IMG/VR virus record: IMGVR_UViG_3300044974_001051
Span: 1-20,190 of that record
Origin: a virus
Length of the DNA: 20,190 bases
Reading direction: 5' to 3' (one strand)
Below are positions 1 to 16,600 of the stretch, in pieces (the stretch's first letter is position 1; each line of letters starts with the position of its first letter). The notes under the pieces are model-generated. The model saw only the letters and a program-made list of their open reading frames with translations, did not search any database and had not been told where the DNA came from. Made by a program: the position numbers and the translations under genes.

Positions 1-26
1 CTATGGATGCGGGTGCGTTTAATCAT
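1..26 (-). CDS. Possible start of a leftward gene cut by the window edge
   Basis: On the minus strand an ATG at 26-24 overlaps the stop codon of the preceding leftward gene (TAATG arrangement), and the frame stays open for eight codons (MIKRTRIH) to the window edge. The stop-start overlap is the same kind of coupling seen between other genes here, which is the only support. No clear Shine-Dalgarno is visible and the fragment is too short to identify. Confidence 0.25.
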
Positions 27-289
27 TACCGATACGACACAGAACGAACGAGGTTATCATGTTTAGCCCCATCAGGCGCGATCGCTGTAGCAAACCAGAT
101 GTAGTAACCGAAACTTCGATAGTTTGCTTCCCAAGCTTTAGCACATTCAATACAATCAGCTAAAGATTCTAGTGGCGCAGTAGGATCGTCAAATTTGACT
201 GTATGGATTCCTGAATCACGACTCATTATGGTTCCGCTATGAATACCAATGCTTAGCCGCCAAGGTGTTTGTTGTTCTAGATCGTTCAT
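26..289 (-). CDS. Small hypothetical protein (87 aa), start revised
   Basis: I do not recognise this protein. The frame is open back to 445, but I choose the ATG at 289 because it is preceded by a strong Shine-Dalgarno, GGAGG, at 302-298 on the minus strand with 8-nt spacing. The upstream codons cover a hairpin and a HIP1 site and look non-coding. The product begins MNDLEQQTPWRLSIG and has an aromatic C-terminal segment (YRSFGYYIWFA), two Cys close together (IECAKAW preceded by ADC) and no obvious membrane segment or signal peptide. It lies downstream of the SWIM gene on the same strand, so the two are probably co-transcribed. It is likely a phage accessory protein; function unknown. Confidence 0.6.
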   Translation of the reverse strand: MNDLEQQTPWRLSIGIHSGTIMSRDSGIHTVKFDDPTAPLESLADCIECAKAWEANYRSFGYYIWFATAIAPDGAKHDNLVRSVSYR

Positions 290-297
290 AATTTCGT

Positions 298-12194: not shown

Positions 12195-12932
12195 ATGGCA
12201 ATTTTCACAGCAAATTCTTCCCCTGCTGGGGCCGCGATTAATAATTCTATTAAGGATCCAATGCAGGGCTTTGACGCCGATGTCTGGGTCATTGACCAAG
12301 CGACCGGCAACCAGCTTTTAGTTGGGCGCTTTACCAGCATCCAGCTAACTATCCGAAACGCGACTGAGCCTTACATGGAATTTAACCAACGCATTCCCCG
12401 AATGCTTGATGGTGAATTTCAGTTCGGTTGGGTTTTAGAACGGGGTCTTATTGACACCCGTCTTCTAGAGTCTACCTTTGGCTTTGATGACATTCGTCGT
12501 GAAATGCGCATTGGTCGCAGCCCAAGGATGGTAATCACCTTTGATCTTTCTGCACCTGAACTTGACGAACGGTCACTCAACAACGTTGATCTTCGGAACA
12601 ATAATCTTGGCGAACTGCTAGTCAACGGAAATGATAACTCCCGTCGTCGGCGTCACTCGGTCGGCCAATATAGATTGGTCTATTGTAAAGTTGACAGTAT
12701 GACTATCGGCGCGATGGCCGGACGTTCAGTAATTGCTGTTCGTTGGGAAGGCCTGGCTGAAGGGATCAGTTACGTCGATTCCTCGTCTGTGTGGGCCGGG
12801 ACTGTTGTTGGTAATCCCTTTACGCCTGCGGACAGTCAGAATACAAACTCTGTATTTTATAACCAGGCCACTATTGTTAATGATGCTCGGCCTACTTGGG
12901 CTTTGCAAAACGGAAACACTTTCGCTCTTTAG
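12195..12932 (+). CDS. Tail tube protein (245 aa)
   Basis: The gene directly follows the sheath gene, where myoviruses encode the inner tube. The content fits the tube/gp19-like fold: an N-terminal 'FTANSS' segment, then VGRFTSIQLTIRNATEPYMEF (residues about 43-63), a GEFQFGWVLERGLID segment typical of tube loops, and a beta-hairpin region containing YRLVYCKVDSMTI. The Arg-rich stretch RRRRH (about 151-155) and the Asn-rich segment before it form a likely loop. The last 40 residues are polar. It has no signal peptide or membrane segment. The start has only a weak purine stretch upstream. The call rests on position and general pattern more than on exact family motifs. Confidence 0.7.
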   Translation: MAIFTANSSPAGAAINNSIKDPMQGFDADVWVIDQATGNQLLVGRFTSIQLTIRNATEPYMEFNQRIPRMLDGEFQFGWVLERGLIDTRLLESTFGFDDIRREMRIGRSPRMVITFDLSAPELDERSLNNVDLRNNNLGELLVNGNDNSRRRRHSVGQYRLVYCKVDSMTIGAMAGRSVIAVRWEGLAEGISYVDSSSVWAGTVVGNPFTPADSQNTNSVFYNQATIVNDARPTWALQNGNTFAL

Positions 12933-12949: not shown

Positions 12950-12967
12950 GTTAGGGCATGCTCTAAC
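12950..12967. other. Near-perfect 18-nt palindrome
   Basis: GTTAGGGCATGCTCTAAC is its own inverted repeat apart from one G-T pair; arms GTTAGG and TCTAAC flank a self-complementary GCATGC centre. It lies 17 bp after the tube gene stop. It could be a protein-binding operator or an RNA hairpin protecting the transcript end. No T-tract follows. Confidence 0.45.
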
Positions 12968-12984
12968 AGCCTTCCCAGGCAGAC

Positions 12985-13044
12985 GAGTTGCGTTGAGTGG
13001 AGATGAGGGGAGTCGAGTTGAGATGAACCGAGTTGAGTTGAGAC
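12985..13044 (+). repeat. GAGNN pentanucleotide array 1 (12 units)
   Basis: Twelve consecutive 5-nt units stay perfectly in phase from 12985. Ten are GAG plus two variable bases (TT, TG, AT, GG, TC, TT, AT, TT, TT, AC); units 2 and 9 deviate (GCGTT, GAACC). The triplet is conserved while the dinucleotide varies, so this is not simple slippage of one fixed unit. Confidence 0.85.
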
Positions 13045-13094
13045 GCTGTGCCTAAGCACTTTTCAATTCTAGTTTGTAATCTTCAGAACGACAA

Positions 13095-13112
13095 CTGGGC
13101 CTAAAAGCCCAG
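13095..13112 (+). other. Short hairpin CTGGGC/GCCCAG
   Basis: CTGGGC (13095-13100) pairs perfectly with GCCCAG (13107-13112) around the loop CTAAAA. It lies between GAGNN array 1 and the strong terminator, 14 nt before the terminator stem. It might be a companion or alternative structure in the transcript leader. Confidence 0.45.
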
Positions 13113-13126
13113 AGTAGATACAAAGT

Positions 13127-13162
13127 AGAAACCCCAGGAGGCCTAAACTTCCTGGGGTTTCT
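13127..13162 (+). terminator. Strong intrinsic terminator-like hairpin
   Basis: AGAAACCCCAGGA (13127-13139) pairs perfectly over 13 bp with TCCTGGGGTTTCT (13150-13162) around a 10-nt loop, and the run GGGGTTTCTTTAG gives a T-rich 3' end on the plus strand. It should end transcripts from the capsid-sheath-tube block. Because the A-rich 5' flank mirrors the T-rich 3' flank, some activity on the minus strand is possible. Confidence 0.75.
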
Positions 13163-13184
13163 TTAGCCATTTTCAGGCTACGTC

Positions 13185-13234
13185 GAGTTGAGTTGAGTCG
13201 AGTAGAGCAGAGTGGAGTTGAGCCGAGAAGAGGC
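13185..13234 (+). repeat. GAGNN pentanucleotide array 2 (10 units)
   Basis: Ten perfect in-phase GAG triplets separated by dinucleotides TT, TT, TC, TA, CA, TG, TT, CC, AA, GC. The array begins exactly 200 bp after the start of array 1, and about 22 bp after the terminator. Confidence 0.85.
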
Positions 13235-13342
13235 GGTTTTTGTCAACCGAAGCTGACTTGAACAATCTAACACACTGCCGCGACTAGGTGCAAGCTGCTT
13301 GGCTGGGTGGCGAGCCTGCTTTACATAAAGGGGTAGAAAGGC

Positions 13343-13374
13343 CAAACCCCCAGCCGGTTAGGACTGAGGGTTTG
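13343..13374. other. AAACCCC-type hairpin, second copy
   Basis: CAAACCCCCAG (13343-13353) pairs with CTGAGGGTTTG (13364-13374) with one mismatch around a 10-nt loop. Its arms resemble those of the terminator at 13127 (AAACCCC/GGGGTTT) and it sits similarly relative to its GAGNN array, but no T-run follows on the plus strand, so it is a degenerate or non-terminating counterpart. Confidence 0.5.
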
Positions 13375-13383
13375 CAAAACGCC

Positions 13384-13448
13384 GAGTTGAGTCGAGTGGA
13401 GAAGAGCTGAGCTGAGTCGAGGTGAGCAGAGGAGAGCGGAGGCGACTT
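13384..13448 (+). repeat. GAGNN pentanucleotide array 3 (12 GAG units plus one GACTT)
   Basis: Twelve in-phase GAG triplets with spacers TT, TC, TG, AA, CT, CT, TC, GT, CA, GA, CG, GC, followed by GACTT as a degenerate thirteenth. The array starts 199 bp after array 2 and ends about 77 bp before the hub gene start, so it would lie in the hub mRNA leader if the promoter is upstream of it. Confidence 0.85.
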
Positions 13449-13525
13449 CTCTACTATATACCTTGCGCACTTAGCTTGCAACTTAGGCAGTTAAGGTCAA
13501 AGTATATTTATGAATAGATTATTAG

Positions 13526-16500
13526 ATGAGTATTCCCGAACCGAGATTCGATCCAACCCTTGGGGATAAATGTCACATGAGAAGTCAGGGTGCTATCCCG
13601 GTTTGGGCGATCACGAGTCTTGACCATACTCAGATCTTATTCTCGAACGTTCATTCTGAGCCCTCCCAATGGGTAATTAGTAGTGCGACGGTTTATCAAC
13701 AGAGATTTTTTGCAAGTTCGACGGCAACAATTTCATTGTCATGTAACTTGACTTCAGTTCATGATATGCCACCTGAACTACCTCTTTACAAAAAGAAAAT
13801 TGACAACGAGGAAGTTCTTTCAAGACTCGGCCCTGAGGATGAAATTTGCGTTTGGATGGGCTATTTGCCGACAATGCGACCTGTCGCTCCTGAGGATCTA
13901 GAAAACTCCCTTCTTTTACGAAACTATATTGGCGTGATCGACACAATCGCAGCCATAGGAACGCCAAAGGGTATCTCATTAACAATCCAGTGTCGAGATC
14001 GTGTTCGTTACCTGTCTGATAGCGAAGTAACATTTGATCCATCATACGGTAATGACAAGAACGCTAGCACACTCGCAAAAGCATTTGCAAAAGGAAACGA
14101 GAATGTCTTGCGGTCAGATTTGATCCTAAAGATTTCCCAGTTGGGAATTGGCCATGTTGCTATTCAAGGTGAGACTGACGACTGCAATCTAAATGGCCGA
14201 GTTATTAAGAAGGGCTTTATTCAAGATTTGGGCTTTTATGTTCAGTACAACAGTAGTTCTGGTAATGCTTTAAGAGGTGGAGGGGGTGCTGCGACTGTTG
14301 GGACTGGAGCTTTATTAGGAATCACAGGTCAAACAGGTGTTGGTACAGGGCCTCACCTCCATCTTCAATACGCCCGCTCTTATGACCCGAGCAGAAATAG
14401 AGTAACAGACGAACATGCCAACCGTATTGCCTTAAATGGAGTTCCTTTAGGTAGTGTCCAAATTACATCTGAACACTGGACTAGAAACCCTGGCAGAACT
14501 GCGAGGTACGGACGCAAGCACTATGGTATCGATTATGCAGCTTCTATAGGAACAGAGATTCGTTCAACTGTTCCTATAGAAAAGATTTCTGGAGTAATTA
14601 GTGATCGGGGTGGTGGAGGCCTTTACACCGCAGTCACTTTTCCAGATGGTGTCTCTTTGCAGATGCTTCATCAAGACCCTGCTGTTTATAATGTAGAACT
14701 TGGGTCTGGAGGAGAAGCACTTCAAGCAGCACCCACACCAACTCCCCAGCCATCTCAACCAACAACTGCGTCAGGAACTTCTGACCCAAATCTTCGTGCG
14801 GTGTTAGATATGATCGCGTGGGCAGAGGGTACTAGCACAATAGCTGGAAGTGATCGAGGTTACAACGTTCAGTATACTGGCCGTTTATTTAATAATGGCT
14901 ATCGCGATCACCCTCGCCAGATTTTAGGAACTGGATTACGGTCATCTGCTAGTGGTCGATATCAATTTCTTATAAGAACTTGGGATGGGCTAGTTCGCAA
15001 ATTGGGCTTGACATCTTTTAGTCCTGAGAATCAAGACAAAGCTGCGATCGATCTTCTTAAACAAAGAGGGGCTTATGACGCGGTTCTTAAACAAGACTGG
15101 CCTACTGTGCTAGATAAAATTGCTTGTGAGTGGGCCAGCATTCCAAGAAGCAATGGATCTTTTTGTTACCCTAGTCAAGGAACTAAAACCCCTCAACAAA
15201 TTTATGACTTTTTAGGTAGCCATTTAGGAGGTGCTGATCCCACATTTACAGGTTCTCCTTCTGAAAGCTCTAGCGGGCCGGGAGGTTATTCATTTGTTAG
15301 ACCTTTAACAGAAGCAAAACGCCCCGACTTTTTCTACACATGTAAAAACGAATTTTCTAAAGATATTATCCCTTGCCGCGCTCGCACTTCTAACCCAAAA
15401 GAGTTATTAGACCTAGACTCAGAAATGAGGTTTAACATCTTTACCGGGCGATTACCCTACTCGGTTGATATTATCAGCAAAGATTTCTCAATTGAAACTC
15501 AGATTCCGATTGAGTTTATTCGAGTTCTCTCAGCTCAGGAACCTTACCCAACTGAGACTTTTATGAACCATCTTGACGGGCAGTTCTATTACACCCCTAG
15601 AGTAAATGATGTTTCAGGCTTAGCTGACCCTAAGCGATTTTACAGGACGTACTACCACCGTACTATTCCCCCGCAGGTTTCTGGTAGCATTCCTAAGCCC
15701 TCGTTTGAGTCCATTATAGAAAGGCTAGAGACTGAAGGTTGCGAGTTTACCCAAACGTTTGACTACAGTCGCATCTTTGGCCAGGTTGATTACAACCAGA
15801 TGACGATCAACTTCAAAGAAGAGCTGTCCTCTCTTGGTATGAAGACTAACTTCTTTATTGCTAACCAATCTCCTAACGGGAGTGTGGCCGGTGACGCGAT
15901 TATTATGCACATGTCAGCCAGGCCCGCGTTTCTTCGAGGACATGAAATTGGTGGCCGCAACATGTACATTGTTGACGAGACGATCAAAAATATTGGAGAG
16001 GCGGCAGCGGTTGCAGCTTCAGTTGCTCGTCTCTATGCTAAAGAGTTGCGCACGGCATCAATGACTGTGTTAGGTGATGCTTCGTTAACCCCTGGCGAGC
16101 TGGTTCAAACTATTAACTCACCTATTTACTCTCAGACTCTTCAGACTTATATTGATGAGCGACAGTCTATTGTTGAGTATGAAGGCGCGACTCGTGCTAG
16201 TTACCTGAGTGCATTAGAAGTTACGCGCCAGGGAATTGAATCTAGAGCTGAGACTTCAGCCCCTCTTACAGGGAACTATTCATCTGAACCTTCACCTGAC
16301 GGCTATGAGCGAGTTGATGAAGACTATAAAATTAGGGCTAGAAAAGCTGAGTTTAAGAAGAGCGCTGAGGACATCTTTTGCTCTGCCACTAAAAAAGAAA
16401 CAGCCACGGTTGTAGAAAAGGATACTGAGGGAGATAACGCAGCAGCGACAACTGAAGAGTGGGGCGAGAATCACTGGCGAAAGTCTGGGTTCACGCAAGA

Positions 16501-16600
16501 CCCTCGATCTATTTGGAGAATCGAGGGTGTACGGCATACGCTAAACTCGGCAGGTAGCCAGGGATGGACTAGTGAGCTTGTATTACTGAGTCCTTATTGA
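13526..16600 (+). CDS. Baseplate/tail hub protein carrying permuted M23 peptidase and GH104 lysozyme domains (1024 aa)
   Basis: Residues 1-240 and about 590-1024 look like the two halves of a tail hub (gp27/gpD-like): an ISLTIQCRDRVRYLSD segment (150-165) and a C-terminal WRIEGVRHTLNSAG...SELVLLSPY. Between them are two wall-degrading domains. Residues about 251-388 form an M23 (LytM) peptidase with GPHLHLQ (H277, H279), then H332-YGI-D336 and MLH (H382): all expected zinc/catalytic residues, but in permuted order. After a Pro/Thr linker (402-420), residues 421-566 closely follow lambda endolysin R (GH104 transglycosylase): LDMIAWAEGT with E434 equivalent to the catalytic Glu19, DHPRQI, SGRYQFL, LGLTSFSPENQD, WASIPRS. 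A Ser/Gly linker (568-587) leads back to the hub. The function inferred is digestion of peptidoglycan at the injection site. The start at 13526 has a weak ribosome site; ATG 13577 (after GGGGA) is an alternative. Confidence 0.8.
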   Translation: MSIPEPRFDPTLGDKCHMRSQGAIPVWAITSLDHTQILFSNVHSEPSQWVISSATVYQQRFFASSTATISLSCNLTSVHDMPPELPLYKKKIDNEEVLSRLGPEDEICVWMGYLPTMRPVAPEDLENSLLLRNYIGVIDTIAAIGTPKGISLTIQCRDRVRYLSDSEVTFDPSYGNDKNASTLAKAFAKGNENVLRSDLILKISQLGIGHVAIQGETDDCNLNGRVIKKGFIQDLGFYVQYNSSSGNALRGGGGAATVGTGALLGITGQTGVGTGPHLHLQYARSYDPSRNRVTDEHANRIALNGVPLGSVQITSEHWTRNPGRTARYGRKHYGIDYAASIGTEIRSTVPIEKISGVISDRGGGGLYTAVTFPDGVSLQMLHQDPAVYNVELGSGGEALQAAPTPTPQPSQPTTASGTSDPNLRAVLDMIAWAEGTSTIAGSDRGYNVQYTGRLFNNGYRDHPRQILGTGLRSSASGRYQFLIRTWDGLVRKLGLTSFSPENQDKAAIDLLKQRGAYDAVLKQDWPTVLDKIACEWASIPRSNGSFCYPSQGTKTPQQIYDFLGSHLGGADPTFTGSPSESSSGPGGYSFVRPLTEAKRPDFFYTCKNEFSKDIIPCRARTSNPKELLDLDSEMRFNIFTGRLPYSVDIISKDFSIETQIPIEFIRVLSAQEPYPTETFMNHLDGQFYYTPRVNDVSGLADPKRFYRTYYHRTIPPQVSGSIPKPSFESIIERLETEGCEFTQTFDYSRIFGQVDYNQMTINFKEELSSLGMKTNFFIANQSPNGSVAGDAIIMHMSARPAFLRGHEIGGRNMYIVDETIKNIGEAAAVAASVARLYAKELRTASMTVLGDASLTPGELVQTINSPIYSQTLQTYIDERQSIVEYEGATRASYLSALEVTRQGIESRAETSAPLTGNYSSEPSPDGYERVDEDYKIRARKAEFKKSAEDIFCSATKKETATVVEKDTEGDNAAATTEEWGENHWRKSGFTQDPRSIWRIEGVRHTLNSAGSQGWTSELVLLSPY

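Follow-up and report, generated by a model that had tools for sequence, protein, structure and literature searches.

Three GAG/CTC triplet arrays in a putative LMM01-like cyanophage as candidate orphan guide arrays of the VIPR type

What reads a triplet that recurs every five nucleotides between two viral tail genes? The stretch analyzed here (the window) comprises the 20,190 nt of IMG/VR record IMGVR_UViG_3300044974_001051, and three such arrays are found within the 593 nt that separate a tube-like tail gene (12195-12932, plus strand) from a tail hub/lysozyme gene (13526-16600, plus strand). On the plus strand, array 1 (12985-13042) carries GAG in 10 of its 12 units, array 2 (13185-13232) in 10 of 10 and array 3 (13384-13441) in 12 of 12, and the starts of consecutive arrays are 200 and 199 nt apart. 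The initial annotation had counted GAG in 32 of 34 in-phase 5-nt units over the three arrays, a number that we reproduced exactly. The column information amounts to 2.00, 1.81 and 1.81 bits for G, A and G and to 0.22 and 0.12 bits for the two spacer bases. GAG arrays are confined to the plus strand of the window. Among 300 versions of the window generated with a first-order Markov model, a single GAG array of at least 5 units was found and no array of at least 8 units with any triplet, and a chance origin of the arrays is excluded.

The window appears to be a fragment of a large, LMM01-like cyanophage, and its host is probably a cyanobacterium. Its capsid and tube-like proteins are distant relatives of proteins of Microcystis phage LMM01; the tube-like gene belongs to phrog_34837 and is homologous to LMM01 gp092, and the hub gene gives endolysin and metallo-endopeptidase matches. 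A contig of 207,855 bases (IMGVR_UViG_3300042340_000379) is 100% identical to the window from window base 298 onwards and contains these three arrays but no further ones. Window positions 1-297 have no match to this contig, which reflects either a strain difference or an assembly join. A BLAST comparison of the array region with phages and plasmids returned chance or hairpin matches only, and an Rfam search gave nothing at gathering score. In the relative L131, whose genes are arranged in the same order, the gap between the tube and hub genes is only ~70 nt long and holds no array, so the arrays lie within a stretch of ~520 nt that was either gained in the window phage or lost in this relative. 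At the same junction, Microcoleus phage My-WqHQDG carries a reverse-oriented gene (L308 12773-13207, minus strand) whose putative product is macro-domain-like from its sequence. The tube-hub junction may be a cargo site.

IMG/VR was scanned for eight in-phase GAG units. Many matches were fixed-unit repeats or coding sequence, and the variable-spacer arrays formed a distinct class, often with several arrays per phage, which is carried by at least 11 contigs including the window phage; two more scans that excluded periodic repeats found no further true members. Conservation of GAG with variable spacers in relatives, which the initial annotation had proposed as a check of its reading, was thus seen in other phages, and all 16 spacer dinucleotides occur among the 374 units of the array phages. 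Many of these arrays sit between convergent genes, and the cyanobacterial HIP1 palindrome is abundant (6-28 per 10 kb) in six of the ten other array contigs listed. Arrays in L199, L200, L201, L097 and L023 were rejected as class members, being coding or short-unit repeats. In addition to its GAGNN arrays, one phage contig (G004) has GGCNN arrays at both ends (L166 1-43; L169 3706-3798, corresponding to G004 63706-63798), which may represent a second guide class in the same phage. A 14-unit variable GAGNN array was also observed directly 3' of an RND efflux operon in a Burkholderiales MAG contig (L155 82-149, minus strand); a bacterial array class suggested by this case was discarded, as none of 150 Burkholderiales genomes matched a related pattern.

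The cluster shared most widely in an all-against-all comparison of the array phages was a protein of ~200 amino acids encoded next to the arrays. By profile it was found in seven of the ten other array contigs listed (for instance at G006 59674-60276 and G009 20531-21145), in six of which a small wHTH-like partner accompanies it; the two proteins are PHROG families of unknown function (phrog_4652 and phrog_5926). A profile built from 70 relatives matches PDB entry 36pp, 'SUSP1 Vipr protein' (E 9.8e-11), and the predicted structure of the linked protein (pLDDT 95.1, pTM 0.88) retrieves in Foldseek the Cas7/Csm3 subunits of type III and type VII CRISPR complexes (E 9.4e-10, probability 1.00). 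Vipr is the phage-encoded RAMP protein of VIPR (Viral Interference Programmable Repeat), which was described in phage SUSP1 and a Pseudomonas fulva prophage and further consists of an accessory protein (vap) and vrRNAs of ~100 nt (PMC13142463). In a vrRNA, 9-16 units of a GGY motif alternate with NN, and the NN letters pair with DNA while one base is left out, usually the codon wobble position; the complex silences genes of competing phages (PMC13142463). SUSP1 served as positive control: it carries GGT arrays on the vipr strand, its Vipr matches our 70-member profile at 3e-23 and its vap resembles the wHTH-like partner by inspection. The claim of the initial annotation that a spaced triplet is read by a multimeric RNA-binding protein, rather than produced by slippage, is supported.

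The association extends across the Vipr family. Relatives of the ~200-residue protein are encoded by 285 IMG/VR contigs, and 48 of the best 80 of these 285 loci (L222-L301) have variable-spacer arrays of strict period 5 no more than 3 kb from the gene; 240 randomized loci contained no strict period-5 arrays. Each array-bearing locus uses a single triplet in 47 of 48 cases, which on the vipr strand is GGC, GAC, CGC, CTC, GTC, GTT, CAC or AGT, and the one mixed locus combines GAG and CTC, i.e. one array is reversed. In all seven GAG phages that encode Vipr, the vipr strand reads CTC; G009 and G004 each have one additional array in reversed orientation. Several loci are rich in arrays: L278, L283 and L298 have eight to ten each, and in G003 (25399-26871; L163 5399-6871) ten consecutive modules, each consisting of (NNCTC)12-25 and, after it, an almost identical hairpin (AACCCCGTCAGCGATGGCGGGGTT), lie 3' of vipr and vap as a very large guide cluster.

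We conclude that the three arrays of the window are most likely VIPR-type guide-RNA (vrRNA) genes on the minus strand, with a probability of roughly 0.87. Their surroundings agree with such an organization. A scan of 661 nt on both strands yielded two promoter-like sites where 0.3 would be expected. Each belongs to the minus strand and directly precedes an array: a sigma-70-like TTGCAA-17-TATAGT (13453-13481) ends ~10 nt upstream of array 3, and TTGTCG-17-TAGAAT (13066-13094), likewise sigma-70-like, ends ~22 nt upstream of array 1. For array 2, no promoter passed the scan. Beyond the arrays in the same direction, folding of the minus strand gave a 3' tail hairpin with a 13-bp stem and a 6-nt loop for array 3 (13343-13374; 75-nt segment, -26.4 kcal/mol, z -1.76, 14 of 200 shuffles as stable) and a 3' tail hairpin for array 2 (13127-13162; 86-nt segment, -31.2 kcal/mol, z -3.10, 0 of 200 shuffles as stable), and these hairpins start 10-23 nt past arrays 3 and 2. 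The 3' side of array 1 on the minus strand holds two short hairpins (12950-12980) with a stability not above chance (66-nt segment, -9.6 kcal/mol, z +0.83). Over 31 arrays, the 3' side folds more stably than the 5' side (p 0.002). Calculated from the expected start to the hairpin end, each of the three units would be ~100-110 nt long. Because CTC is on the vipr strand in seven phages and both promoter-like sites and hairpins of the window are on the minus strand, the array RNA is most likely a putative minus-strand (CTCNN)n transcript, antisense to the late operon, and not the GAG-bearing sense strand of that operon as proposed in the initial annotation.

According to this proposal, the minus strand would give rise to three vrRNA units, which would run antisense to the late operon and each follow the plan of promoter, ~10-12 CTCNN repeats and 3' hairpin tail. 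The CTC triplets would set the register in which Vipr (Cas7/RAMP-like) subunits contact the RNA, arranged in a helical row with one subunit for every 5 nt. The NN dinucleotides, taken together, would act as a gapped guide pairing with DNA in the pattern NN-x-NN-x, in which x, the skipped base, usually coincides with a codon wobble position. The two spacer bases, described initially as free to vary, would under the VIPR reading be the informative part. Such guides would probably recognize tail genes of competitors related to this phage and block transcription of these genes, with the phage's own copies escaping through mismatches.

In RNA order, the dinucleotides read GT AA AA GG AT AA GA CC AT CA AA AA in guide 1 (12985-13044, minus strand), GC TT GG AA CA TG TA GA AA AA in guide 2 (13185-13234, minus strand) and GC CG TC TG AC GA AG AG TT CA GA AA in guide 3 (13384-13443, minus strand). 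With the one-base-skip rule of VIPR, a site resembling guide 3 was located inside the hub gene (13735-13770, minus strand, 18 of 24 positions) and one resembling guide 1 inside the tube-like gene (12237-12272, plus strand, 17 of 24), both with the skip at the codon wobble; the hub gene gave the best match of guide 3, and the tube-like gene that of guide 1 among the late genes of the window. The hub-gene codons specify L S C N L T S V H D M P versus [FL]S[CW][NK]LLSV[HQ][DE]RA implied by guide 3, and the tube-like-gene codons I N N S I K D P M Q G F versus V[NK][NK]G[IM][NK][DE]P[IM][HQ][NK][NK] implied by guide 1. Guide 1 finds its best match in the relative L131 at the homologous site as well, where it also scores 17 of 24 and where the V implied by this guide is present. 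Compared to shuffled guides in the nine late genes on both strands, the wobble-phased matches gave p 0.001 for guide 3, 0.031 for guide 1 and 0.22 for guide 2 (Fisher combination ~6e-4), and the other two codon phases in the same nine genes all gave p>0.5. Since the sites in the phage's own hub and tube-like genes carry mismatches, we suggest that the true targets may be the homologous genes of a competitor phage. An IMG/VR scan with guide 3 yielded no exact target; its matches were the phage itself, an unrelated contig and L306, a hub-like fragment that contains stops. Across the entire 208-kb genome of the phage, the best guide scores were not unusual, and the guides of nine other array phages showed no excess of own-genome matches; the targets are therefore regarded as supported by inference and not as a result. 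A search with 126 guides against 2.66 Mb of DNA, with skips of 0, 1 or 2 bases, likewise gave no excess over shuffled guides.

Neither the window nor the 208-kb contig, which is not closed, contains a vipr gene detectable with the family profile, with SUSP1 Vipr or by motif search, and the partner-protein profile has no significant match to indicate a vap in either of them. As vipr and vap were not found, the window is a set of VIPR-type guide arrays and not a complete VIPR locus, and we refer to these strongly supported guide arrays as 'orphan', their effector gene not being recognized. Vipr may come from elsewhere, either in trans or from DNA beyond the sequenced part, the phage may have a divergent Vipr of its own, or the arrays may be relics. 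We tentatively consider that the orphan CTC guides could borrow Vipr from a co-infecting phage, a satellite or a resident prophage, with the private triplet of the lineage deciding which Vipr reads them; this version is possible though doubtful and, if true, would make guides and effector separate, tradable units.

The alternative that the arrays are dead remnants of a lost VIPR cassette and serve no present function would account for the lack of recognizable vipr and vap genes in 208 kb, for the two broken units and the missing stable tail of array 1 and for the insert-free relative L131. Drift would, however, erode the triplets, and arrays 2 and 3 have kept GAG in every one of their 22 units, an argument against an old relic. 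Promoter-like sites and tails persist as well, and orphan arrays are a recurring situation: GAGNN arrays without recognizable vipr also occur in G008 (L179 9567-9649; a short contig of 10.6 kb), G010 (L188 5171-5324) and G011 (L190 8256-8308). Taken together, we consider a dead remnant unlikely.

The initial annotation attributed the arrays to a TRAP-like ring, i.e. the GAG-bearing late mRNA would wrap around an 11- or 12-subunit TRAP/MtrB-type protein of the phage or its host and control readthrough into the hub gene. The known TRAP ligand is indeed GAGNN with 2-nt spacers and 10-12 units, and a true site looks alike: in Clostridia bacterium 41_269, 10 units (L157 3991-4038) lie upstream of trpE and PF02081 is detected with an E value of 3.8e-40. 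The same search that finds PF02081 in this control detects it in none of the array phages (all 12 phage records). Moreover, the arrays accompany Vipr in seven phages and read CTC on the vipr strand there, none of the triplets GGC, GAC, CGC and GTT of other Vipr phages is a known TRAP ligand, and it is the minus strand that bears the promoter-like sites and hairpins although GAG is on the sense strand of the late operon. This explanation is thus largely refuted and has become very improbable.

Half-turn binding to DNA was also suggested at the outset: a protein would touch GAG at each half-turn of the duplex, for example in packaging or roadblock termination, in line with the 5-bp period and the location of many arrays between convergent genes. 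Such a site is highly unlikely, as it leaves the promoter-like sites, the 3' hairpins and the linked Cas7-like protein with its RAMP fold unexplained, and the strand is mostly fixed relative to vipr with one private triplet per phage. A terminator of hairpin plus GAG or a REP-like element was dropped from consideration once the linked protein had been identified. Finally, a decaying pentanucleotide microsatellite or coding repeat, as represented by many (GAGNN)8 matches in IMG/VR, is excluded by the column statistics, with nearly information-free spacers next to a near-invariant GAG in the window, and by the full set of spacer dinucleotides and the position of the arrays outside genes.

Compared to known systems, the arrays share triplets, 2-nt spacers and about 11 units with TRAP (MtrB) sites, but differ by the lack of a TRAP gene, the most likely use of the other strand, presumably informative instead of neutral spacers and an unrelated fold of the linked protein. 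The similarity to the crRNA/Cas7 backbone of class 1 CRISPR systems lies in the principle that a helical row of RAMP subunits reads an RNA and breaks base pairing at a fixed interval, and the Vipr model matches Cas7/Csm3; however, the window shows no CRISPR repeat-spacer organization and no recognized cas genes, and the guide information would be dispersed over the arrays as dinucleotides. The closest resemblance is to VIPR itself, which a 2026 report presented as a CRISPR forerunner using a gapped guide code: the window arrays have 12, 10 and 12 units with a constant triplet and NN at 0.1-0.2 bit, would form units of ~100 nt of which several lie in one intergenic stretch like the SUSP1 vrRNAs, have long hairpins on the 3' side of arrays 2 and 3 though not of array 1, and are tied across phages to a Cas7/RAMP-like protein with a small DNA-binding-type partner. 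They differ in that the triplet is CTC and not GGY, the constant motif being given as GGY or 'a related consensus' (PMC13142463); CTC arrays adjoin Vipr genes in seven other phages. Further, no vipr or vap was found in the window phage, which probably infects a cyanobacterium. The window arrays extend VIPR to an LMM01-like cyanophage and other cyanophages, to a non-GGY register and to guides without a recognizable effector gene, and because 47 of 48 loci use a private triplet, it becomes testable which residues of Vipr select the triplet and whether guides are exchangeable between phages.
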